From Bacteroides ovatus (GTDB lineage Bacteria; Bacteroidota; Bacteroidia; Bacteroidales; Bacteroidaceae): a stretch of 64,000 nucleotides of DNA. The notes beneath the pieces were generated by a model. It searched no databases. It was not told the origin of the DNA and saw only the letters and a list, made by a program, of their open reading frames with translations. Each line of letters begins with the position of its first letter. Within the stretch, counting starts at the first letter, position 1. This document shows, piece by piece, positions 1 through 12,942 of this stretch. Position numbers and translations under genes: made by a program. The stretch covers positions 682,001 through 746,000 of the forward strand of contig NZ_CP012938.1 in NCBI RefSeq assembly GCF_001314995.1. Reading direction: 5' to 3'.

Positions 1-2460
1 ACGAGCTGTTGCAGATGTTCCGGATACTCCATAATAATCTAAGATACCTTGAGTAGCCGAATAAGCTAATCCGCCTACGCGGGCTGATAATACAACTCCT
101 AAATCAATTCCTTTATAAGTGAAATGATTGGTCCATCCGAGGTTGAAATCAGCATCCAGATTACCTACTTTTACCGGAGTGTTTGATGAAGTGATACCCA
201 GATTACCATTCTGATCGACTTTTATATTACCGTTATTGTCTTTTGTCAGTTGGTTGTATACATAGATATCAGTCATGGAGCCTCCTTCTGTCAGGATGAC
301 GCGAGGAGCTACATTCTCTTTACCTAACCAACCCACATTCATTTCATCCATTTGGATAGCTTCTCCTGTCACGGGATTCACGCTGCCGCTTGCCAGTCGT
401 TTCACCTTGTTACGGTTTAGAGTGAAGGTTGCATTAGAAGACCATCCGAATCCTGCCCATTTATCGTTGAACCCTAAAGCCAATTCAAGACCTTGGTTTT
501 GCACGTTACCAGCTTGTACAATCGCTTGTTTATATCCGGAAGAAGAGGGAATATCTACCTTAAATGTTTGGTTCAGTGTGTTAGAACGATAGTAAGTTGC
601 GTCTAAATTGAAACGGTTTCCCCAGAATTTCAAGTTCAAACCGATTTCCCAGGACTTAGTCTTTTCAGGTTTCATGTTGTCCATCGGGTAAACGGTCGGA
701 TTCGCCCAGTTATGTGTCTGGCTGTTGTATTCGTAACCCGGATTAGTAAGGAAACGATCGAAAGAAGAGGCTACCACTGTATATGAACCGCGTATTTTAG
801 CATAAGAGATCACCTCGGGCAGTTTAACCATTTCTGATAATAAAGCCGATAAACCGACTGACGGATAAAAGAAAGATTTCTGTTTGGAGAATGCAAGTTT
901 TGAATCCCAGTCATTACGTCCGGTTACGGTTAGATACAGTTGATTTTTCCAACTTAATTCAGCACTGGCAAAAATACTTTGAATTTCATCTTCATATCCG
1001 GTAGGGTCCGGTTTATAGTTGGCGGAGAAATTAATATTGTTGATCTGGAAGAAGTTAGGAATAACCAGGTCACCTGCAATATATAACTGATCCATTGAAG
1101 TATGATATATGGAAGCACCAACATTGGCTGTTAAATGAAAATCACCAAATGTTTTATCTATATTAGCCAGGAAATCGGCATATAAAGAACGTTCCTGACG
1201 CATGGCATCTTCAAAACCACCGCTTACACCACAGAATGTTGTTAATGTAGAAGCAGATTTTTCGTTTTTATTCCGGTAGTCGGAGTTGTCCAGATTGACA
1301 CGACCGACAACATTGAGCCAATCTGCAGCCTGCCATTTCAAAGAAGCGTTCATCATATAACGTTTCTTGTTGGAAGTACGGTTGATGCGATTTTGTATCC
1401 AATATGGATTTTGTAATGACAAACTTGCATCACCATAAGGCCAATATTGTTCCATATAGCCGTAGTTAGTATTATAACGCTCATACAGACGAATTTCGTC
1501 AAAGTTGTCTCCACGAGGGAATAGATACAGTGATGGGAGAGGATTATAATACTGTCCTTGAGAAACCATGTTTTTGTTGTTCTGAACGATATATTGTGCA
1601 CCGATATCCAGAGTAAGTTTATCATTCAGGAAATGGGTGGTATTACGTGCCGTAAAATTATAACGGTTATAGGAGTTATTCGGAAGAATTCCACCGGAGT
1701 TAGTTGTAGAAGCAGAAAGATAGGTCTGGTTTTTGGTATTTCCTGTAGATAATGCTACCGAATTGATAACATTGGAGCCTGTTTCAAAGAAGTCAGATGG
1801 GTTATATCGACGGTTTGTCAATTCTCCCCAGCTGAATAATCCGGAACTTGTACCATAACGGTTCTGCATATCCGGCATAATATATGCTTTAGAGAAAGTA
1901 GTACTGTTGGATACTGTTATGGTAGTTTTCTCTGTTTGGCCTTTTTTAGTAGTAATTAAAACAACACCGTTTGCCGCAGCAGAACCATATAATGCTGCCG
2001 CAGAAGGACCGGTCATCATACTAATACTAGCAATATCGTCCGGATTTAAGTCAGCAACAGCATCTGATCCTCCCATCTCTCCAAATAATCCTTCGCCACC
2101 GCTTTTTCCTGTATTAAAAATAGGTACACCGTCAATTACATACAATGCATTGTTATCTTTAGTCAGAGATTTCATACCACGCATAACAACACGTGTGGCA
2201 CCACCAGCACCGGTTGCACCACTATTAATCTGAACACCGGCAACCTTTCCTGATAGTGAATTCATAAAATTGGCATCTTTTACAGCTGTCAATTCGTCAC
2301 CTTTTACCTCTTGTACATTATAACTTAACGCCTTAGTTGCACGCTTGATACCCAATGCAGTAACAACTACTTCGTCCAATACTTGCGTATCTTCTCCTAA
2401 GGTTACTTTTATAGGTTGTGCGTTGGCAAGCGTGATTGTTTGGGAGAAAATCAGTTTCAT
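1..2460 (-). CDS. Silent, 5'-truncated SusC-like TonB-dependent receptor (partial at window edge)
   Basis: The minus strand is open from an ATG at 2460 to the window edge and encodes a SusC/RagA outer-membrane receptor: TonB-box-like DEVVVTALG, plug (YVIDGVPIFNT, GSAAANGVVLITTKKG) and a long beta-barrel. It closely resembles the receptor at 4700-8026 but starts with only about nine unrelated-looking residues (MKLIFSQTI). It lacks the signal peptide, STN domain and most of the carboxypeptidase-regulatory domain that the other copy carries in its first ~170 residues. No export signal or obvious promoter precedes it, so it should be silent as it stands. The adjacent recombinase and shared 19-bp sequence suggest it is activated by inversion. 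It probably corresponds to BT1042. The C-terminus lies outside the window. Confidence 0.88.
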   Translation of the reverse strand, partial: MKLIFSQTITLANAQPIKVTLGEDTQVLDEVVVTALGIKRATKALSYNVQEVKGDELTAVKDANFMNSLSGKVAGVQINSGATGAGGATRVVMRGMKSLTKDNNALYVIDGVPIFNTGKSGGEGLFGEMGGSDAVADLNPDDIASISMMTGPSAAALYGSAAANGVVLITTKKGQTEKTTITVSNSTTFSKAYIMPDMQNRYGTSSGLFSWGELTNRRYNPSDFFETGSNVINSVALSTGNTKNQTYLSASTTNSGGILPNNSYNRYNFTARNTTHFLNDKLTLDIGAQYIVQNNKNMVSQGQYYNPLPSLYLFPRGDNFDEIRLYERYNTNYGYMEQYWPYGDASLSLQNPYWIQNRINRTSNKKRYMMNASLKWQAADWLNVVGRVNLDNSDYRNKNEKSASTLTTFCGVSGGFEDAMRQERSLYADFLANIDKTFGDFHLTANVGASIYHTSMDQLYIAGDLVIPNFFQINNINFSANYKPDPTGYEDEIQSIFASAELSWKNQLYLTVTGRNDWDSKLAFSKQKSFFYPSVGLSALLSEMVKLPEVISYAKIRGSYTVVASSFDRFLTNPGYEYNSQTHNWANPTVYPMDNMKPEKTKSWEIGLNLKFWGNRFNLDATYYRSNTLNQTFKVDIPSSSGYKQAIVQAGNVQNQGLELALGFNDKWAGFGWSSNATFTLNRNKVKRLASGSVNPVTGEAIQMDEMNVGWLGKENVAPRVILTEGGSMTDIYVYNQLTKDNNGNIKVDQNGNLGITSSNTPVKVGNLDADFNLGWTNHFTYKGIDLGVVLSARVGGLAYSATQGILDYYGVSGTSATAR
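2428..2446 (-). repeat. Putative inversion crossover site, copy in silent susC
   Basis: On the minus strand this reads CTCCCAAACAATCACGCTT. It matches the sequence at 5212-5230 on the plus strand with one mismatch (A versus G). The two copies face each other and are read in the same codon phase (S-Q-x-I-T-L). Upstream of the copy the two susC genes become unrelated, while downstream they stay homologous. That is what a recombination joint between a constant 5' end and a variable body would look like. The exact cleavage position cannot be read from one sequence. Confidence 0.6.
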
Positions 2461-3086
2461 ATACTTTCCCTAAATTCTATTCTTGTTTGATAAATAGATT
2501 AGATGTTCTATTTTTAAGATGTCAGACTAAATACAATTAAGTAAATTCAATGAATGAGAGAAAAAGTTAGTAAGATTGCGCATGAATATGCAGTAATCAA
2601 CTTGTTTTTATTCATATATGCGGTATGAATATTCGATAAAAGACGTTTTTTCAGGAATGTTCCACACCGAGAATCACTTCGTTTCTCGGTGTGGAACATT
2701 TTGATTCTTTAAATGGAACCTAACAAATCATTTAAAGAATAATAATAACTTGCTTTATAGTAGTTGTTTTCTTCTAGTTAGTGCCGATAATACAAAGAAC
2801 GGAATCTTTTCATTTGATTAATATTATCAATATTAGATATTATTCTATCACTACGCGGGCGATAAAAAGAATAAATTGCAATAATATCATCCTTTTTTTT
2901 ATTTGAATTACGTTTGGCTAAAGTGGAAATCCCTGCGGTTTTCGAAACACTCCTGATAACAAGATGCATATTCTAAATTATAGATAATCTGAATATGCGT
3001 TTTTTAATATTATACTCACTTTTATCCTATATCAATTATTGGTCCATTTTTCATTGTACATACAATTTGCATGCAAATGTATTAAT
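2461..3086. other. Non-coding interval inside the proposed invertible segment
   Basis: This AT-rich interval lies between the silent susC and the recombinase. It contains a perfect 18-bp hairpin at 2656-2700 and a 14-bp palindrome (ATTTGCATGCAAAT) at 3065-3078, just past the recombinase stop. A 63-codon minus-strand frame (2778-2969) lies downstream of the recombinase, but its product resembles nothing I recognise and its composition looks like background. I do not call it a gene. Confidence 0.5.
2656..2700. terminator. Perfect 18-bp stem hairpin
   Basis: The arms at 2656-2673 and 2683-2700 are exact reverse complements around a 9-nt loop. On the minus strand it lies about 390 bp downstream of the recombinase stop and upstream of the silent susC start. 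It could end recombinase transcription and insulate the silent receptor. No long T-run follows on either strand, so a protein-binding or recombination role is also possible. Confidence 0.45.
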
Positions 3087-4322
3087 CTAGAGATTAAAGT
3101 TAGTCAATAATTGAGCATTCCTTATTCTTTCCTCTTTTTCAAAGTATGCTAAATAGTGCTCGGTTACAGATAAGTTAGAGTGTCCCAAGCTTTCAGAAAT
3201 ATATGAGGTTTTCGCACCTCCACGTTTTAATACTGTAGCAAAAGAATGCCTTGCCGTGTAAGTCGTCAACTGAAAAATTCCAATGTCTTGGGCTATTTTT
3301 TTAAGTCTTCTGTTACATTTGGTTATAATACGCCGTACCAATCTAATCTTTTCAAAGGCATCTTCAGTTCCTCTAGCATATTTAAAAATATACGTTTGCG
3401 GGCTTAATCTTGGATTACCCCATTTTTGAATAATATTCCACATTTCAGGAGTAATGATTGCATGTATCTCTTTGTTATGTTTGGTAGTTCGAGATGTCTT
3501 AGAGCGTACAAAGCATATTTCTCCATCCATAATATTTGAATACTGAAGAAATAATAAATCCATAAAATTAATGCCATTACATAAATAAGAAAACACCCAG
3601 AGATCTCTAAATTCTTCTATATCTTTTGTTTCACATTGATAGGACATTACTTTTTTTATTTCAGAAAGAGTAAGTGCTAATTTACGTCCACACCCTTCAG
3701 GAATTTCATATTTATTCTTTCCAAAAGGAAAAGATGATTCTTTTATAATACCATCATGTACAGCACGATTTAAGACACACTTTAAAGCTCGGAAATAAAT
3801 ACTTATGCTTGAATAGCTTTTACCTTCTGACATCCAAAATTTTTCACAACGTTTAAGCCAATCAATTGTAATGTTTTCCAAAGGTATAGTGGAACCTCCG
3901 AAATCTTCTAAACTTTTTAAAGCACTTTGATAATTTAGGTAAGTGTTTGCTTGTTCATAGGCTTCCAGTTCTTTCATTTTTAAGCGAAAAGCACTGCGCA
4001 AAGTCATATCATTCATCTGCCTTCCTAACCTGACGCTTAATGTTTCAATACTAAATTCTCCTTTTGTTATCAGTTCATTAACTTGTTGCTTAATAGTTGA
4101 AAAACTACTCTCTATATCTGATCGAATTTCTGCCAATAACCGGCTTTTTACCTTTAATAACCTTGCCCAATCTTCTTTTGACACTTCCTTCCCAGTTGAG
4201 TAATATTTTTGCTTTCTTCTATATACCACTTGAACTTTAACAGGAAACTGTCCACTCTTTTTTGCTCTTCTGGTATCTAATATGGTTAAAACCGAAATTC
4301 CATCTTTTGAATATTTGAACAT
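3087..4322 (-). CDS. Tyrosine site-specific recombinase (Tsr-type invertase)
   Basis: This is a phage-integrase-family recombinase of the Bacteroides type. The N-terminal arm-binding domain is followed by a SAM-like core-binding domain (around FRLKMKELEAYEQANTYLNY) and a C-terminal catalytic domain. The box-II signature is clear: TARHSFATVLKRGG, then LGHSNLSVTEHYLAYF with the tyrosine nucleophile in HY. I prefer the start at 4322 (MFKYSKDGIS), which fits the usual N-terminus; an upstream ATG at 4376 would add 18 residues. It sits between an expressed and a silent susC, the arrangement of receptor-shuffling invertases in B. fragilis and B. thetaiotaomicron (BT1041 position). Its likely job is inverting the segment it lies in. 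Confidence 0.88.
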   Translation of the reverse strand: MFKYSKDGISVLTILDTRRAKKSGQFPVKVQVVYRRKQKYYSTGKEVSKEDWARLLKVKSRLLAEIRSDIESSFSTIKQQVNELITKGEFSIETLSVRLGRQMNDMTLRSAFRLKMKELEAYEQANTYLNYQSALKSLEDFGGSTIPLENITIDWLKRCEKFWMSEGKSYSSISIYFRALKCVLNRAVHDGIIKESSFPFGKNKYEIPEGCGRKLALTLSEIKKVMSYQCETKDIEEFRDLWVFSYLCNGINFMDLLFLQYSNIMDGEICFVRSKTSRTTKHNKEIHAIITPEMWNIIQKWGNPRLSPQTYIFKYARGTEDAFEKIRLVRRIITKCNRRLKKIAQDIGIFQLTTYTARHSFATVLKRGGAKTSYISESLGHSNLSVTEHYLAYFEKEERIRNAQLLTNFNL

Positions 4323-4699
4323 AAAATGAATATTTATATCTATACAATAGGTAAAGCATACATATATTGTATGCAAAATGTATGCAAATGTAATAAATCA
4401 GCCTGATTTTAATAAGTACATAAGATTCTATTTATCAAATATTTGAGTATTTATTTTTCAATTAGGAATCTTTCTATTCTATTTTTTTCGAAAAAAATCT
4501 TATCTTCGTTTAGTAAGGTTACAACATAAAATGTATTACTATTGAATAAGCGCTTATGGAATTTATTTTAAGTATAACCTTTAAATTTATTAATTATGAG
4601 AAACAGAGATACATGAAACCTTTGTGTGAAAACGGTAATCTCATTTACCGCCTCTAATTACAAATTCTCTAAAAACTATTTCTAATTAAAAAGAATAAG
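4323..4699. promoter_or_regulatory. Divergent control region between recombinase and susC
   Basis: This AT-rich region should hold both divergent promoters. TATCTTCG at 4501-4508 resembles a Bacteroides -7 element (TAnnTTTG) for susC, but I see no convincing -33 box at the usual distance. Directly upstream of the recombinase is a short tandem repeat, TGTATGCAAA at 4368-4377 and 4379-4388; its ATGCAAATGTA end also occurs at 3071-3081 on the other side of the gene. The ~200-nt leader before the susC ATG contains no gene I can support. In the proposed inversion this whole region moves with the recombinase. Confidence 0.4.
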
Positions 4700-7600
4700 A
4701 TGAAAGAAATTATAAAACACAAGTTTTCATACTTGTTATTCTTCCTTTTGTTGGTTTCGTGTTTTGCTTCAGCTTATGGGCAAGAACGAACGATCACTCT
4801 TAATCTATCGAAAGTACCCTTGAACACTGCTTTGAAAGAAATTGAGAAACAAACTTCAATGTCAGTAGTCTATAACACAAATGATGTCGATATAAATCGT
4901 GTCATATCTATCAAGGTAACAAAAGAATCTTTGAATAATGTAATGAATCAGTTATTCAGAGGAGTAAATGTCAGTTTTTCAATAGTAGATAATCATATTG
5001 TACTTTCTGCGAAGAGTAATAAAGAAGAGCAGCAGAAAAAAACACCAATTACTGCAAGTGGTACTGTTACTGATTCAAAAGGAGAACCATTGATTGGAGT
5101 TAGTATTTTGGTAAAAGGAACTTCAAATGGTACTATCACTGATATGGATGGAAATTTCAAAATACAAGCAGCTAAAGGTGATGTACTTGAAGTATCCTAT
5201 ATCGGTTATGCCTCCCAAGCAATCACGCTTACTAGTGCACAACCCTTGAAGGTTACTTTAGGAGAAGATACGCAGGTGTTGGACGAAGTAGTCGTTACTG
5301 CATTAGGTATCAAGCGCGCAACTAAAGCATTAAGCTATAATGTGCAAGAAGTAAAAGGTGATGAATTGACAACTGTAAAAAGTGCCAATTTTATGAACTC
5401 ACTGGCTGGAAAGGTGGCTGGTGTTAATATCAATGCATCTTCATCCGGTGTTGGAGGGGCTACGCGTGTAGTTATGCGTGGTACCAAATCTATATCTTCA
5501 GACAATAATGCTTTATATGTAATTGATGGTGTTCCTATTTTTAATACAAATAAAGGTGACACTAACGGACAATATTCAGCCCAACCGAGAGGAGAGGGTA
5601 TATCTGATATCAATCCGGAAGATATTGAAAGCATGTCTGTATTAAGTGGACCTGCTGCTGCGGCCTTGTATGGCTCTAATGCAGCGTCTGGTGTAATTTT
5701 AATTACTACAAAGAAGGGAAAAGAAGGTAAGGCACGAATTATTATTTCTAATAATTCTACTTTTTCCAATCCTTTTATAATGCCTGAATTCCAAAATTCT
5801 TATATAAACCGCGCAGGTTCCTTTGCTTCATGGGGAGATAAAGCGTCTTCCCTTTTCGGAACTTATGAGCCAAAAGATTTTTTCAATACAGGTACTAATA
5901 TTCAGAATAACGTTTCTTTATCTGTTGGTAATGAAAAGAATCAAACTTATCTGTCTGTAGGTACTACTAATGCAACTGGTATCATTCAAAATAGCAAATA
6001 TGACCGTTACAATTTTACCTTCAGAAATACAACAAAATTCCTGAAGGATAAAATGACATTAGATGTGGGTTTTAGCTATATTATTCAAGAAGATCTTAAT
6101 CTAATGGCACAAGGTGAATATTTCAATCCACTACCAGCTGTATATCTGTTCCCGCGTGGCGAAAACTTTGAAGCTGTGAGGATGTATAAAACGTATGACA
6201 CAACTCGTAAGATAGATGTACAGAACTGGGGATGGGGGGACCCTGGATACAGTATGAAAAATAATCCATATTGGGTGGCTAATGAGATGAACCATGGCAT
6301 GAAAAAACAACGTTACATGGCTAATGCTAGTTTAAAATATGAAATTTTGGATTGGCTTGATGTGACAGGGCGCGTTCGCATTGATAATGCAACCAATGAT
6401 TATTCAGATAAAAGAAATGCTTCTACTGATCTTTACTTTACTAATAGTTCTATTTATGGATTCTATAAGTACTATAAAGCTGACGATAGACAGGCTTATG
6501 CAGATGTGATGGCTAATATTAATAAACGCTTTGGTGACTTAAGTTTAAGTGCTAATATTGGCGGTAGTTTTACTCAAACTTATTATGACGAAAGAGGATT
6601 CCAAGGTGGTTTGAAAGATATGTCTAATGTTTTTAGTCTATATAATATGACTACAACTTTGGATAAAGATACTTATCCTATAGAAAGTGGATACAAACAA
6701 CGCACCAACTCTATTTTTGCTAGTGCGGAAATTGGTTGGAAGAGTATGTTGTATATGACTTTAACCGGACGTAATGATTGGGATTCAGCATTGATTAATA
6801 CAGAACAATCATCTTTCTTTTATCCATCAATAGGGCTTTCAGGAGTTATTTCCGAAATGGTAAAATTACCCAAAGCTATTACTTATTTGAAAGTACGCGG
6901 CTCATTTGCTTCAGTAGGTGCTCCTATTCCTAAGAATCTTTCTTCCAACAAAACGTATGAGTGGGACCCTGCGACTAGTCAATGGAAATTACAAACTTAT
7001 CGTCCTTTGCCTAAACTTTATCCTGAACGTACTAATTCTTGGGAAGCTGGTTTGAATGCCAAATTCTTTAATAATAGTTTAAGTTTGGAAGTTACCTGGT
7101 ATAAGGCTAATACTCGCAAACAAACATTCCAAGTTCCTTTATCAGGAACCGCTGTATATGCGACTATGTATGCGCAGTCTGGTAATATTGAGAATAAAGG
7201 TATGGAATTTTCTTTAGGGTACAATAAATCATGGGGAGATTTCTCGTGGAATTCAAATTTGACTTTTAGTTTTAATAAAAATAAGATTGTAGAACTCTTG
7301 GATGATGCAGTGGATGATGAAGGTAATCACTATAGTTTGAGTGAGATAGATAAAGGTGGCATTGGATCGGCTAAAGTTATTCTTCGTAAAGGAGGAAGCA
7401 TGGGAGACATGTATGTCACTAATCGTTTGAAACGTGATAATGAAGGAAATGTATATATTGATAAAGCGAGCCAGAATGTGAAGAAAGAGGATATAAAGAA
7501 TTCGGATGAATTTATTCATATTGGCTCTGTATTGCCTAAGAGCAATTTAGGCTTTAGAAATGATTTCTCTTATAAAGGCATTAGCTTGGGATTCATGCTT

Positions 7601-8026
7601 GCTGCCCGCTTTGGAGGTATTGTTATCTCACCAACACAAGCTGTAATGGATCAGTTCGGAGTATCTAAGGTCACAGCTTTAGCACGTGATAATGAAGGTG
7701 TTCCTGTAAATAATGGAAAAGTGGATCCCCAGACTTATTATACAGAAGTGGGTGGAATAAGTGGATTGATGTCTAACTATGTATATAGTGCTACTAATGT
7801 TCGTTTACAAGAGTTATCGGTGGGCTACTCACTTCCAGCCAAATGGTTTAATAACAAATGTAATCTTAGTTTGTCAATAACAGGTCACAACTTGTGGATG
7901 ATTTATAATAAAGCACCATTTGATCCGGAAGCTACCGCTTCTACTGGTACTTATTATCAAGGTGTTGATTACTTTATGCAACCAAGTTTGAGAAGTTGGG
8001 GATTTAATGTAAAAATACAGTTTTAA
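4700..8026 (+). CDS. SusC-like TonB-dependent receptor with STN domain (N-glycan locus, expressed copy)
   Basis: This outer-membrane importer pairs with the SusD at 8045. In order: signal peptide (1-27), STN domain (about 30-104), carboxypeptidase-regulatory beta-sandwich (about 119-197), TonB-box region DEVVVTALG (195-203), plug to about residue 340, then the barrel. At 1108 residues it is complete. An STN domain usually means the receptor signals through a FecR anti-sigma factor to an ECF sigma factor, so induction probably depends on such a pair; none lies in the window. Residues 171-177 (ASQAITL) are encoded by the shared 19-bp sequence, so everything upstream would be the movable 5' end. 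It likely imports oligosaccharides released from complex N-glycans (BT1040 position). Confidence 0.92.
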   Translation: MKEIIKHKFSYLLFFLLLVSCFASAYGQERTITLNLSKVPLNTALKEIEKQTSMSVVYNTNDVDINRVISIKVTKESLNNVMNQLFRGVNVSFSIVDNHIVLSAKSNKEEQQKKTPITASGTVTDSKGEPLIGVSILVKGTSNGTITDMDGNFKIQAAKGDVLEVSYIGYASQAITLTSAQPLKVTLGEDTQVLDEVVVTALGIKRATKALSYNVQEVKGDELTTVKSANFMNSLAGKVAGVNINASSSGVGGATRVVMRGTKSISSDNNALYVIDGVPIFNTNKGDTNGQYSAQPRGEGISDINPEDIESMSVLSGPAAAALYGSNAASGVILITTKKGKEGKARIIISNNSTFSNPFIMPEFQNSYINRAGSFASWGDKASSLFGTYEPKDFFNTGTNIQNNVSLSVGNEKNQTYLSVGTTNATGIIQNSKYDRYNFTFRNTTKFLKDKMTLDVGFSYIIQEDLNLMAQGEYFNPLPAVYLFPRGENFEAVRMYKTYDTTRKIDVQNWGWGDPGYSMKNNPYWVANEMNHGMKKQRYMANASLKYEILDWLDVTGRVRIDNATNDYSDKRNASTDLYFTNSSIYGFYKYYKADDRQAYADVMANINKRFGDLSLSANIGGSFTQTYYDERGFQGGLKDMSNVFSLYNMTTTLDKDTYPIESGYKQRTNSIFASAEIGWKSMLYMTLTGRNDWDSALINTEQSSFFYPSIGLSGVISEMVKLPKAITYLKVRGSFASVGAPIPKNLSSNKTYEWDPATSQWKLQTYRPLPKLYPERTNSWEAGLNAKFFNNSLSLEVTWYKANTRKQTFQVPLSGTAVYATMYAQSGNIENKGMEFSLGYNKSWGDFSWNSNLTFSFNKNKIVELLDDAVDDEGNHYSLSEIDKGGIGSAKVILRKGGSMGDMYVTNRLKRDNEGNVYIDKASQNVKKEDIKNSDEFIHIGSVLPKSNLGFRNDFSYKGISLGFMLAARFGGIVISPTQAVMDQFGVSKVTALARDNEGVPVNNGKVDPQTYYTEVGGISGLMSNYVYSATNVRLQELSVGYSLPAKWFNNKCNLSLSITGHNLWMIYNKAPFDPEATASTGTYYQGVDYFMQPSLRSWGFNVKIQF
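5212..5230 (+). repeat. Putative inversion crossover site, copy in expressed susC
   Basis: CTCCCAAGCAATCACGCTT is inverted relative to 2428-2446 with one mismatch and lies in the same codon frame. Recombination between the two would invert about 2.8 kb carrying the recombinase, the promoter region and the first ~170 codons of this susC. Confidence 0.6.
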
Positions 8027-8044: not shown

Positions 8045-9622
8045 ATGAAAATATATAAATTCATAACGCAGATTTCTATTGCAGGCTGTATGCTTGTTGG
8101 AACTCCAATGTTACAAGGATGCATGGATAATAGCTTGAATGATCCGTTGGGAAAAGTTTCGGAAGAAGAACTTGGACGAGATGGATTTGCTGCCAATGCT
8201 TTCTTCTTGACTTTATGTGATTATGCATATCCCATAGCTACTGAAAACATTTATAATACCAATGAATCCTTGATTGGTGACTGCTATGGACGTTATCAAG
8301 TAATGGCAACAGATAAGTTTAAAGGGGCAAATTTTGCTACATATAACGCACCCGAGAACTGGTTAAACTGGCAGTTTGCAGATGATAATGTAATGGTATT
8401 GACGTATGGTGCATGGAATAAAATAAAGAATGTAACCCAAGGAACAGGAGTTAACTTTGCATGGGCACAGATTTTGAGAATTGCGACAATGCATCGTATG
8501 CTTGATATGTATGGGGCACTTCCTTATTCCCAAATTTCAAGTGATAAACTTTCGGCTCCTTACGATACAATGGAGGAAGCATATCATGCTATGTTTACTG
8601 ATCTGACTGATGCAATTAATGTAATGACTGTTTATGTGACCGAAAATCCAAACAACAGAACGATGGCTAAGTATGATAAAGTTTATGACGGTGACTTTGA
8701 GAAATGGGTGAAATTTGCAAATTCACTGAAACTACGTATGGCCATTCGTATTCGTTTTGCAGATCGTGAATATGCCAGACAGATGGCGGAGGAAGCTATT
8801 AACCACTCTATAGGGGTAATTACTTCCAATGAAGATAACGCAACTTCTTTAGGTACTAAAAATCAATTGTATACGGTATTGGTACAATGGCCCGATCAAT
8901 GTGTCTCTGCGGATATTACGTCCTATATGAAAGGGTATAACGATCCGCGTATGTCGAAATATTTTAAAAAGAAAACGAGCGATAAAGGAGATGATGATTA
9001 TGTGGGTATGCGCGCAGGTTTGTCTTATGGTAATGATATTACCGGACCGACTTTCTCTAGAATAAATGTTGGAGAGATGGATCGTACTTTATGGATGAGT
9101 GCAGCTGAAACAGCTTTTAATAAAGCTGAAGCGGCAATGTTAGGATGGGATGTAAAAGGAGAAACGGTGAAAGATTTGTATGAATCAGCTATCAGACTTT
9201 CTTTTGCACAATGGGGAGTATCGGATGGTATTGACCAATACCTGAATGATGAATCAAGTACTCAGGCTGATTATGTAGATCCTAATGAGAATAAGGGGAA
9301 TGAAAGTGCTATTAGCTCTATAACTATCAAATGGAAAGATAATGCTGGTGAGGAAGAAAAACTGGAAAGATTAATAACCCAAAAATGGATTGCAATGTGG
9401 CCTTTGGGACAAGAAGCATGGAGTGAGTATCGTCGTACTGGGTATCCGCGTTTTTTCCCGTTATTGAATGGGAATGTAACCAATCTTCCTTCAGCTAATC
9501 GTATTCCGTTCCCACCATCGGAATATATTCGTAATGCTGCTAATGTAAATGCTGCTGTAAGTAAATTGGGTGGTGCTGATAATTATCAGACTAAGGTTTG
9601 GTGGCAGCGTAGGGATAAGTGA
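8045..9622 (+). CDS. SusD-like surface glycan-binding lipoprotein
   Basis: The protein is 525 residues with a lipoprotein signal ending at Cys26 (MLQGC), followed by an all-helical SusD/RagB fold. Features include WAQILRIATMHRMLDMYGALPYS, which fits the TPR region. The C-terminus (KVWWQRRDK) is typical of the SusD-like_2 group, which includes the mucin-glycan binder BT1043. It lies 18 bp after the susC stop, so the two are co-transcribed and should form the lid-and-barrel SusCD complex. The ligand is inferred from the neighbours to be N-glycan-derived oligosaccharide. If the upstream segment inverts, transcription of this gene would fall together with its susC. Confidence 0.92.
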   Translation: MKIYKFITQISIAGCMLVGTPMLQGCMDNSLNDPLGKVSEEELGRDGFAANAFFLTLCDYAYPIATENIYNTNESLIGDCYGRYQVMATDKFKGANFATYNAPENWLNWQFADDNVMVLTYGAWNKIKNVTQGTGVNFAWAQILRIATMHRMLDMYGALPYSQISSDKLSAPYDTMEEAYHAMFTDLTDAINVMTVYVTENPNNRTMAKYDKVYDGDFEKWVKFANSLKLRMAIRIRFADREYARQMAEEAINHSIGVITSNEDNATSLGTKNQLYTVLVQWPDQCVSADITSYMKGYNDPRMSKYFKKKTSDKGDDDYVGMRAGLSYGNDITGPTFSRINVGEMDRTLWMSAAETAFNKAEAAMLGWDVKGETVKDLYESAIRLSFAQWGVSDGIDQYLNDESSTQADYVDPNENKGNESAISSITIKWKDNAGEEEKLERLITQKWIAMWPLGQEAWSEYRRTGYPRFFPLLNGNVTNLPSANRIPFPPSEYIRNAANVNAAVSKLGGADNYQTKVWWQRRDK

Positions 9623-9654
9623 ATAATAGTATAATCTATATTAATATAAATAGT

Positions 9655-10719
9655 ATGAGAAAGATATTCTATTTTATAATGTTGTTATTTGGCATAACGG
9701 TTGCGAATACAGCGTGTGATGATTGGACAGACATGGAACCAAAATTCCAGGAAGATATGACTCAGTCGTCACTTCCGGAAGAATACTATGCCCAGCTTCG
9801 CGCTTATAAGAAAACAGATCATCCGGTTGCTTTCGGATGGTTTGGTAATTGGACCGGAAATGGAGCTACTTTAGAAAAATGTTTAGCCGGACTTCCTGAT
9901 AGTGTGGATTTTGTTTCTATTTGGGGTAACTGGAGAAATTTGACAGAAGCGCAAACAAAAGATTTGCGTTATGTACAAAATGTAAAAGGGACTAAAGCTT
10001 TGATGTGTTTTATTGTTCAAAATATCGGTGACCAATTGACTCCCGAGGAATATAAAGATAATTATCTGGAATTCTGGGGATGGAATGAGAATAAGGAAGA
10101 AGCTATAAAGAAATATGCCCATGCAATATGTGATAGTATTGATAAATATGGATATGATGGCTTTGATATTGACTATGAGCCTAATTTTGGTCATCGAGGT
10201 AACATGAGTGGAAGTGATGAGAATATGTTGTTGTTCATTCAGACCTTGGGAGAAAGAATCGGACCAAAATCGGGTACAGACAGGCTATTAGTAATTGACG
10301 GTGAGCCACAAAGTATTGTATCGGAGTCAGGTCCTTATTTTAATTATTTTATAGTGCAGGCTTATGATTCTCCAGGAGATAATACTGGACGTGACAATTT
10401 GGATAGCCGTTTAAACTCTACAATAAGAAACTTCGATGGGCATTTGACTGCAGAAGAAGTTGCTAAGAAATATATTGTAACTGAAAATTTTGAAAAATGG
10501 GCTTTGTCTGGTGGTGCTGATTTCACAGATCGATATGGAAATAAAATGAAGTCTTTGGAAGGTATGGCACGTTGGACGCCTATTATTGACGGGAAAAAAT
10601 GTGTAAAAGGAGGGGTCGGAACTTATCATATGGAGTATGAATATACAATTGATGGTACAGAAGAATCTTATCCTTATTTGCGTAATGCTATCCGCATTAT
10701 GAATCCACCGGTAAAATAA
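9655..10719 (+). CDS. GH18 endo-beta-N-acetylglucosaminidase lipoprotein
   Basis: This GH18-family TIM barrel carries the catalytic signature DGFDIDYE (DxxDxDxE), with the acid glutamate at residue 175 counted from the ATG at 9655. That start gives a clean lipoprotein signal (MRKIFYFIMLLFGIT...ANTAC) with Cys21 followed by acidic residues, as in Bacteroides surface lipoproteins. A GTG at 9619 would add 12 unlikely residues and overlap the susD stop. GH18 enzymes of this locus type cut the chitobiose core of N-glycans at the cell surface; BT1038 and BT1044 are the relatives I recall. Expected role: releasing glycan from glycoprotein for capture by the SusCD pair. Confidence 0.88.
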   Translation: MRKIFYFIMLLFGITVANTACDDWTDMEPKFQEDMTQSSLPEEYYAQLRAYKKTDHPVAFGWFGNWTGNGATLEKCLAGLPDSVDFVSIWGNWRNLTEAQTKDLRYVQNVKGTKALMCFIVQNIGDQLTPEEYKDNYLEFWGWNENKEEAIKKYAHAICDSIDKYGYDGFDIDYEPNFGHRGNMSGSDENMLLFIQTLGERIGPKSGTDRLLVIDGEPQSIVSESGPYFNYFIVQAYDSPGDNTGRDNLDSRLNSTIRNFDGHLTAEEVAKKYIVTENFEKWALSGGADFTDRYGNKMKSLEGMARWTPIIDGKKCVKGGVGTYHMEYEYTIDGTEESYPYLRNAIRIMNPPVK

Positions 10720-10741: not shown

Positions 10742-11953
10742 ATGAGATATCTGGTAAAAAATAAAAATACAATAATGTTCGCCTTTGCCATATTGCTTTG
10801 TGCAATTATAGCAAGTTGTGAAGATGCAAAGTATGATACTATCGGCAGTAGAATTTATTTAGCTGAATCCAGTAGTTTGTCTTATGAATCTAAAAAAGTA
10901 ACAGTAGCTGAAGAGGGTAGTGTTGTCACTGTGACTCCTCGGTCGGGACAAATTGCAACAAAAGATATAGAAGTTACTTTGGGACTAAGTCCGAAATCGT
11001 TGGAAGTATATAATACAAAAAGTGGTACGAACTATAAATCTATGCCGGAAGGTTCATATTCTTTTGATCAAAAGACAGTGGTTATAAAAAAAGGAGAATT
11101 AGTGGCTCCTACTGTTAAAGTATCAATTGATCCGTTGACAAAGGAAATGCTTGATTCTGGTGATAAATTTGCACTACCGGTTGCTATTACTGCTGTATCA
11201 GGTGGGCAACAAACTTTGGAAGGTGCAGATGTGATGATTTATATCATGGATCAGGTTATTATAACCTCTGCACCAGTGTTGACGGGTACAAAACCAATTA
11301 CTATGGAAATGCGTCAGGATTATACAGTAACTCAATGGTCACTTGAAATGCGTATTAATATGAGCGAACTTGGGGATGGGGTGACTCCTGGAGTTGGTTA
11401 TCCTGGTCCTCCTAGCTATCAGAATCAAGCAATATTTTCTGCAGGTCCAGGTAATGGTATCGCAGAAGATGGTGAAATTTATATCCGTTTTGGTGATGGC
11501 CCGATTCCTGGTAATATTTTGCAGATAAAAACACAAGGTACTCAAGTAAATGCTGCTACTAAGTTTAAAAATAATCAATGGTATCATTTAGCATTTGTTT
11601 GTGATGGAGTGAAATTGACTATTTATGTAAATGGAAATATTGATGCAACATTAGATCTTCCAAGAAAACCTTTGCGTCTTGTTAAGAATAGCTTTGGTAT
11701 ATGCAATGGTGATTGGATGGTTACAGATGCTATAGTTAGCGAAGTACGTTTTTGGACTACTGCTATTTCACAATCGCAGATTCAGAATAATATGTTTGCG
11801 ATAAATCCGGGTACAGATGGCTTGGAGGCTTATTGGAAATTGAATGAAGGGTCAGGAACCGAATTTAAAGATGCAACTGGTCATGGAAATAAAGCCACGG
11901 CACCTAAGGGAGTTGTCAGATGGGTAGATGGCATTAGATCAGATGGTAAATAA
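10742..11953 (+). CDS. Surface glycan-binding-type lipoprotein, DUF1735 plus LamG domain
   Basis: The protein is 403 residues with a lipoprotein signal ending at Cys26 (AIIASC-ED). Residues about 40-165 resemble the DUF1735/BT_3987-type N-terminal beta-sandwich, including the YNTKSGTNYKSMPEGSYSF motif found in many such proteins. Residues about 175-400 form a concanavalin-A-like LamG domain (WYHLAFVCDGVKLTIYVNG, EAYWKLNEGSGTEF). No catalytic residues are evident. Its place directly after susC-susD-GH18 suggests an accessory surface glycan-binding protein. Confidence 0.78.
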   Translation: MRYLVKNKNTIMFAFAILLCAIIASCEDAKYDTIGSRIYLAESSSLSYESKKVTVAEEGSVVTVTPRSGQIATKDIEVTLGLSPKSLEVYNTKSGTNYKSMPEGSYSFDQKTVVIKKGELVAPTVKVSIDPLTKEMLDSGDKFALPVAITAVSGGQQTLEGADVMIYIMDQVIITSAPVLTGTKPITMEMRQDYTVTQWSLEMRINMSELGDGVTPGVGYPGPPSYQNQAIFSAGPGNGIAEDGEIYIRFGDGPIPGNILQIKTQGTQVNAATKFKNNQWYHLAFVCDGVKLTIYVNGNIDATLDLPRKPLRLVKNSFGICNGDWMVTDAIVSEVRFWTTAISQSQIQNNMFAINPGTDGLEAYWKLNEGSGTEFKDATGHGNKATAPKGVVRWVDGIRSDGK

Positions 11954-11976
11954 TATAATATTCAAATGATGTAATT

Positions 11977-12942
11977 ATGAGATTGAAAAATATAATATGG
12001 AAAACAGTAGTGATGTCATTAATGGCATCACCACTGTGCATCTCTTGTGACGATGATGACGAAGTTACTATGAATTCTAAGTTTTATCTTTCTACGAAAG
12101 TTTTTCCGGTAGATTCTTATGAAGCATCGTTGTCAGTGATTTTGAAAGATAATTCAGTGGTCGTAAATGAGTTACAACCTAATTATCGGTTTGTTGCATG
12201 TGCCACGGAGAGATTATCGAAAGATGTGAAAATAACAGCCGATAGTGATGATAATCTAGTAAGTGCTTACAATAAAGCTAATGATACGGAATATAACATA
12301 TTACCTGCTGAAAATTATTCTTTCACCAATAAAACTGTTACTATTGAAAATGGAGAAAGTGTATCTGGAGATTCTATAAAAATAGAGCTATTAAATGTAG
12401 GATCGTTGACTACAGAAGGGGGATATTTGTTGCCAGTTACCATATCTTCTATAGAAGGTAATAACTTAGATGCACTTAGCTCTAACAGAGGAGTAGTTTA
12501 TCTGAAAATTCAAAATATTCATGTCAATGTAGAGTCCGGGCAACCGGCTGAAGGTACTTTGATTGCCGATCGTTCTGGCTGGACTGTAAAAGTTGCCCCG
12601 ACGACTCGTGGAGATGCTAAAAATCTAATTGATGGAACAAATTCTGATGTAGCTCGTGATGGAGGAGCAGAATATTGGTTAACTGTGGATATAGGTAAGG
12701 TGCAGACATTAACAGGAATAAGAAATAAGTGTTATGCTAGTAGTTATTCACCGACTGCAGTAGAAGTATTTACTTCGAGTGATGGAGCAAAATGGAAATC
12801 TATTGGTGCTGTAACTATTTCAAAGAGTGGCACACAATATATTAAGTTTTCGAAAGCCGTTGAAACGCGTTATTTAAAGTATTATGTGAAACAAGGTCCC
12901 AATACGGTCAGCCTTACGGAATTTGACCTATATGCGAAATAA
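11977..12942 (+). CDS. Surface lipoprotein, DUF1735 plus F5/8-type (discoidin) carbohydrate-binding domain
   Basis: This 321-residue protein has a lipoprotein signal with Cys24 followed by DDDDE, an acidic tract like Bacteroides surface-export signals. A DUF1735-like domain spans about 40-175 (AYNKANDTEYNILPAENYSF). A C-terminal F5/8 type C/CBM32-like domain spans about 195-321 (YWLTVDIGKVQTLTGIRNK, TRYLKYYVK). It follows the LamG protein by 23 bp and is followed by a hairpin, so it is probably the last gene of the susC transcript. A glycan-binding role is inferred; I see no enzyme motif. Confidence 0.76.
   Translation: MRLKNIIWKTVVMSLMASPLCISCDDDDEVTMNSKFYLSTKVFPVDSYEASLSVILKDNSVVVNELQPNYRFVACATERLSKDVKITADSDDNLVSAYNKANDTEYNILPAENYSFTNKTVTIENGESVSGDSIKIELLNVGSLTTEGGYLLPVTISSIEGNNLDALSSNRGVVYLKIQNIHVNVESGQPAEGTLIADRSGWTVKVAPTTRGDAKNLIDGTNSDVARDGGAEYWLTVDIGKVQTLTGIRNKCYASSYSPTAVEVFTSSDGAKWKSIGAVTISKSGTQYIKFSKAVETRYLKYYVKQGPNTVSLTEFDLYAK

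Follow-up and report, generated by a model that had tools for sequence, protein, structure and literature searches.

The stretch analyzed here (the window, 64,000 nucleotides) comprises bases 682001-746000 of the single-contig, 6,472,489-bp genome of Bacteroides ovatus (NZ_CP012938.1), and contains two susC genes that point away from each other on either side of a tyrosine recombinase gene. This arrangement is very probably a two-state, recombinase-driven receptor switch, in which a 2,765-bp segment flips between two inverted 21-bp sites. The local recombinase would recombine the sites, which lie within the reading frames of both susC genes, and the flip would transfer the putative promoter, the start codon, the signal peptide, the STN domain, and most of the carboxypeptidase-regulatory (CarboxypepD-reg) domain from one receptor gene to the other. 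At any one time, the moved promoter would then drive only one of two operons: the right one (susC-susD-GH18-lipoproteins) or its left paralogue.

An earlier reading, made from the letters of the DNA alone (the sequence-only reading), had described a headless left susC on the minus strand and a complete right susC on the plus strand around the recombinase. Both genes were found at these positions (Table 1), in agreement with the domain matches, which are to the Plug and barrel only in the 820 residues of the left receptor that lie within the window, with no STN, and run from STN (residues 54-105) and CarbopepD_reg_2 (120-199) to the Plug in the right receptor. The recombinase between the two sites matches Arm-DNA-bind_5 (arm binding), Phage_int_SAM_5 (SAM-like), and Phage_integrase. 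As in a SusC/SusD shufflon, there are at least two susC/susD units, and only one has a complete 5' end.

The inverted repeat of 19 bp that was read at 2428-2446 (as the reverse complement) and 5212-5230 differs at one of its 19 bases, and is better drawn as a 21-bp matching block, CTCCCAARCAATCACGCTTRC, at 2426-2446 (minus strand) and 5212-5232 (plus strand). At up to three mismatches, this block occurs at only two places in the window (mean of 0.00 in 100 shuffles), and at the same two only in the whole genome, which, given that no other site is present, looks like a two-state switch. The two copies share a codon frame, reading S-Q-T/A-I-T-L, and the genes are unrelated before the repeat and homologous after it, as had been claimed, with the inverted homology (arms 2110-2446 and 5212-5548, 337 bp, 82%) beginning exactly at the block. 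These short inverted sites in a common frame stand at the boundary between head and tail, as expected of a shufflon. The site falls at about residues 171-178 of the headed SusC, so that most of the carboxypeptidase-like domain would move with the head, and this position, the breakpoints, and the flipped states of the relatives support the flip of approximately 2.8 kb that was originally proposed. In an alignment of 18 sites from eight genomes, 15 of the 21 columns never vary, and CTCCCA and CAATCAC are among them. The commonest form of the site contains AAGC-AATCAC-GCTT, a short inverted repeat around a 6-bp center, which would fit the core sites of tyrosine recombinases, where such an architecture is often seen.

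The recombinase was surveyed in 158 genomes of the genus, 24 of which have a match at E 1e-80 or better, and all nine loci with a recombinase at least 80% identical (that of the window included) were inspected, with the susC tails labelled by their C-termini; the SusC paralogues lying away from the locus in these nine genomes were matched, and were not used. The site is present in eight of the nine. The head is joined to R in the window, with A headless, and to A both in G080 (a single-contig genome with a recombinase 97% identical to that of the window), with E headless, and in B. acidifaciens DSM 15896 (G009), where the headless B is on a second contig. It is joined to B in B. congonensis (G065) and in G133, with A headless, and to C in G069, with B headless. 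In B. faecis MAJ27 (G001), the head is on B and C is headless, and a third site bears a headless tail, D, which is 75% identical to A at the DNA level. In the metagenome-assembled genome (MAG) G162, B is headless and the head is on C or D, and in B. xylanisolvens XB1A (G179), A and E lie on either side of a gap. The suggestion of further partners thus held in B. faecis, and failed in the genome of the window, which has two sites only.

The alternative joint that the sequence-only reading had proposed to look for in related genomes was found in G080 and B. acidifaciens. The window and G080 are collinear from -5303 to 2446 at 91.5% identity, after which the segment (2,765 bp in both, 94.4% identical) lies on the opposite strand. 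Between B. acidifaciens and B. congonensis, the A operons are 98.7% identical and the B operons 95.5%, with each match ending at the site, and the segment (87.8% identical over the 2.5 kb held by the acidifaciens contig) joins A in the former species and B in the latter. Between B. faecis and the MAG, the B operon is 99.3% identical, the C operon 99.7%, and the D tail 94.5%, and the segment is 95.9% identical and inverted. Here, the alignment of B stops exactly at the last base of the site. To the left of the site the sequence is exchanged, while the B tail is unchanged from site position 17 onward, which places the crossover to the left of position 17. A left susC with a 5' end of its own, which would have spoken against the flip, was not encountered: in the eight genomes that show joints (all but XB1A), the unjoined receptors are without the 5' part of the head.

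Joints of this type, which are the mark of a shufflon, occur in nature not only in the related genomes, but also among public proteins. The protein P0121 (a cluster of 4,408 sequences) combines the head of the window (99%) with its A tail (99.3%), and differs from the in-silico flipped product of the window at 8 of 1,100 positions. The present state is represented by P0241 (2,280 sequences), and the same head (99%) is found on E in P0309 (690 sequences), although these cluster sizes are not frequencies, given that the members may include headless frames. Overall, the same head, 99-100% identical, is joined to the R, A, and E tails.

The ratio of nonsynonymous to synonymous substitutions (dN/dS) was computed for four pairs of tails, each with at least one headless copy. 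It is 0.020 for A of the window (headless) and G080 (headed), 0.046 for A of B. acidifaciens (headed) and B. congonensis (headless), 0.027 for B of B. congonensis (headed) and G069 (headless), and 0.023 for A of the window and B. congonensis (both headless). The A tail of XB1A, which ends early as read and differs from P0121 in 58 of 927 columns, was omitted. At values of 0.02-0.05, the headless genes appear to have been kept functional, and are therefore probably used. The sites, the breakpoints, the flipped states, and these intact genes under selection all emerge from the comparison of sequences; the catalysis of the flip by this particular recombinase, and the silence of the headless operons, are presumed.

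The alternative that survives best, improbable as it is, attributes the inversions to RecA-type homologous recombination between the inverted susC paralogues, with the recombinase as a bystander. Such recombination could draw on the inverted homology of the window's arms (82%, 337 bp), and on the likeness of the partners over the first 100 bp from the start of the site, which reaches 96-100% in G080, B. congonensis, and B. acidifaciens (78-92% in the window, at 5212-5311 and 2347-2446). The bases of the B tail kept from position 17 beside a swapped left side argue against it, however, as do the XB1A contigs, which break inside the site, and the 15 invariant columns of the 21-bp block. The role of bystander is difficult to reconcile with a gene under purifying selection (dN/dS of 0.061 in two comparisons) that adjoins the head in all nine genomes and, in seven, is seen between the two sites.

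The expression of the left receptor as a second, shorter protein from an in-frame ATG at 2460 is very unlikely. This ATG is in frame in both the window's genome and G080, but it lies in the arm of the segment, the sequence of which differs between species, and its product has no STN domain; a sigma-70 scan of 2447-4760 recovered no excess of sites, although no search was aimed at a promoter for this ATG. The weakest alternative, a fixed ancestral rearrangement in which the left susC is a decapitated remnant and the differences in orientation are old events, would fit the single orientation of the window's own assembly, but is hardly credible in the face of intact headless tails with dN/dS of 0.02-0.05, a protein only eight residues from the flipped product, and near-identical genomes that differ by the inversion.

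A number of points nevertheless weigh against the two-state switch. All of the states come from consensus assemblies or predicted proteins, and a single orientation is seen in the assembly of the window. The joints of B. acidifaciens are on two contigs that are not bridged, and the head joint of the MAG ends in a 55-mer common to two partners, so that a head on C is the parsimonious reading, and not the sole one. The source and context of P0121 are not given, and headless frames may be among the members of its cluster. In G080, B. congonensis, and B. acidifaciens, the likeness of the partners prevents base-level placement of the crossover, and there may be some contribution from homologous recombination. 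Finally, the sigma-70 scan found 10 promoter-like sites in 2447-4760, where 14.4 were expected from shuffles.

The region of approximately 380 bp before the head can be aligned in all nine genomes, and includes the candidate promoter element, TATCTTCG, which is exact in seven of the aligned regions, with TATTTTCG in the other two. The motif TAnnTTTG is the Bacteroides -7 consensus, as quoted in PMC4747536. Between the putative promoter and the head are a 12-bp palindrome, ATAAGCGCTTAT, at 4546-4557, which does not vary among the nine aligned genomes, and a six-codon open frame (4596-4616, MRNRDT in the window). A perfect 18-bp inverted repeat with a 9-nt loop lies at 2656-2700, between the recombinase and the left site. 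It was considered as a terminator of the recombinase gene, and rejected, given that no run of T was visible by eye after it on that strand, and it was not listed by the scan, which has a loop limit of 8.

Table 1. Features of the switch and the adjoining operons in the window.
Feature	Position	Strand	Remarks
Left inversion site, CTCCCAAACAATCACGCTTGC	2426..2446	-	Site scans of window and genome; alignment of 18 sites
Right inversion site, CTCCCAAGCAATCACGCTTAC	5212..5232	+	Site scans of window and genome; alignment of 18 sites
Invertible segment, 2,765 bp: putative promoter, susC head, tyrosine recombinase	2447..5211		Of the same length in G080, but in the opposite orientation, next to the A operon
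Left (A) susC, headless: Plug and beta-barrel	1..2460	-	Intact frame, 934 aa, which runs 344 bp past the left edge of the window
Tyrosine recombinase, 411 aa	3087..4322	-	From the ATG that opens the relatives' frames (TTG start at 4376 in the list of open reading frames)
Putative promoter element of the head, TATCTTCG	4501..4508	+	Inferred; one base off the Bacteroides -7 consensus TAnnTTTG
Right (R) susC, complete, 1,108 aa: signal peptide (by eye), STN, CarboxypepD_reg-like, Plug	4700-8026	+	
Exchangeable susC head: signal peptide (by eye), STN, first part of the CarboxypepD_reg-like domain	4700..5211	+	
R susC tail joined to the head at present: Plug and region beyond	5233..8026	+	
susD of the right operon	8045..9622	+	PF12741, E 3.1e-161
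GH18_BT1044-like protein, DGFDIDYE motif	9619..10719	+	Left-operon counterpart outside the window
Two proteins of the right operon with BT_3987-like N-terminal domains (one LamG-like, the other F5/8 type C)	10742..12942	+	

The left and right operons are paralogous, with both including SusD, a BT1044-like GH18 protein with a DxxDxDxE motif, and proteins with BT_3987-like N-terminal domains. The BT1044-like GH18 family is one that we take to be associated with N-glycans, and, because the operons are paralogous, the choice is probably between two related host-glycan systems. The STN domains of TonB receptors signal to anti-sigma factors of the FecR type. The presence of STN in the head, with genes for an extracytoplasmic function (ECF) sigma factor and FecR alongside, is the combination found in hybrid TonB receptors coupled to ECF sigma/FecR, and we infer a coupling of STN with FecR at this locus. 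In the genome of the window, the two genes lie at the outer end of the A operon; in B. congonensis, they are at that of the B operon. One signaling circuit would probably serve whichever barrel is joined, given that the shared head has the STN domain and the ECF sigma/FecR pair adjoins the left operon.

A broader possibility, against which the odds seem to lie, is that of a portable sensor head, in which one STN head, coupled to a single ECF sigma/FecR pair, would be rotated among barrel-plus-GH18 operons (A, B, C, D, E, and R) that are found throughout the genus and vary by species. If so, the ligand range would change by DNA inversion with the signaling input constant, and the inversion site would also be a seam for the intake of new operons, with gene conversion homogenizing the first 50-100 bp behind it. 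At this seam, A of B. acidifaciens and A of B. congonensis are 88% identical in the first 50 bp, and then 100% across nine 50-bp windows. The likeness of the partners beside the site is, as far as these alignments indicate, local concerted evolution.

Recombinase-driven SusC/SusD shuffling was recognized from the outset as a known class, and shufflons of B. fragilis and B. thetaiotaomicron have been published; what is added here is the exact site, the partner sets of each species, and the adjacent ECF sigma/FecR pair. In the shufflon of plasmid R64, a dense cluster, C-terminal segments are swapped onto a constant N-terminus, unlike the present locus, where a constant head moves between whole operons. 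The two systems are alike in the exchange of gene segments by site-specific inversion (Rci; PMC11852207). In B. fragilis, the master invertase Tsr0667 acts on three SusC/SusD clusters, where the inversions are of the shufflon type, and on nine other regions (PMC4747536; the shufflons are attributed to Nakayama-Imaohji 2009 in PMC4747536 and PMC12632263, the latter of which lists SusCD inversions). There too, inversion selects among susC/susD pairs, but, in contrast with those regions as they are described, the recombinase gene here is inside the segment, and the site has two copies genome-wide, with no distant copy at up to three mismatches. In the intergenic shufflon of Region EE of B. fragilis, inversions likewise place alternative ragA/susC pairs under one promoter, but the repeats overlap the susC start codon (PMC5729914), while the present seam is approximately 170 codons into the gene, which leaves the signal peptide and STN shared.

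Nutrient-receptor shufflons have also been reported in B. thetaiotaomicron, with one shifting after exposure to phage (PMC12548429). A headed SusC named for that species (P0344) has a head 85% identical to that of the window, and a headless one (P0289) is 69% identical to the R receptor, on the basis of which the locus is probably orthologous to one in B. thetaiotaomicron. The shufflon locus of that species is presumably the BT1040-BT1046 region. No paper describing an inversion at BT1040-BT1046 by gene number was found in a search outside which the primary shufflon papers lay, and absence from print is not claimed. Set beside those shufflons, which are compared here at the level of proteins, the locus of the window has two partners and a single pair of sites.

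The site, the breakpoints, and the partner list are provided here for a nutrient-receptor switch in several gut Bacteroides, and reads that cross defined joints can be used to score its orientation. Individual cells of a strain are predicted to opt for one of the two paralogous operons, each with a BT1044-like GH18 gene, and the annotation of the headless gene as a fragment would mislead. The invertible regions that differ most in inflammatory bowel disease are within or near SusC/SusD-like systems and upxY genes (PMC10939037), and recombination hotspots have been reported at read level at TonB/Sus loci of one B. xylanisolvens strain (PMC8042965).

In the XB1A record, 1,475 Ns separate the A and E tails at the original place, where each of the two contigs breaks off within the site. 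The equivalent of 2447-5210 (98.6%, 2,764 bp) is found approximately 1 Mb from the N run at the proper position (L139 9560-11034 and L041 9167-11928), without sites at either end. This placement is probably a misassembly; the movement of the segment to a new locus was rejected, given that, with these Ns in its original position, a misplaced contig is a simpler explanation. The breaks would fit the presence of both orientations in the reads of one strain, since a mixed culture breaks an assembler at such points, which is suggestive, and not proof. The MAG contig G162:C77, the ends of which share the 55-mer, was similarly considered as proof of a mixed population, and set aside: the starts of C56 and C59 show the stretch common to the C and D tails, which means that a single clone explains it.

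Thirteen loci with recombinases 47-61% identical, which span 11 of the 15 other genomes in the survey, plus two others, were scanned for the site (seven at up to four mismatches, six at up to five), and yielded a single five-mismatch match, in L039. At four loci in four genomes (L072, L073, L074, and L078), with no copy of the site in their 20-kb stretches, a recombinase 59-60% identical is followed directly by another susC-susD-like pair, as judged by eye, and these are possibly sister switches.
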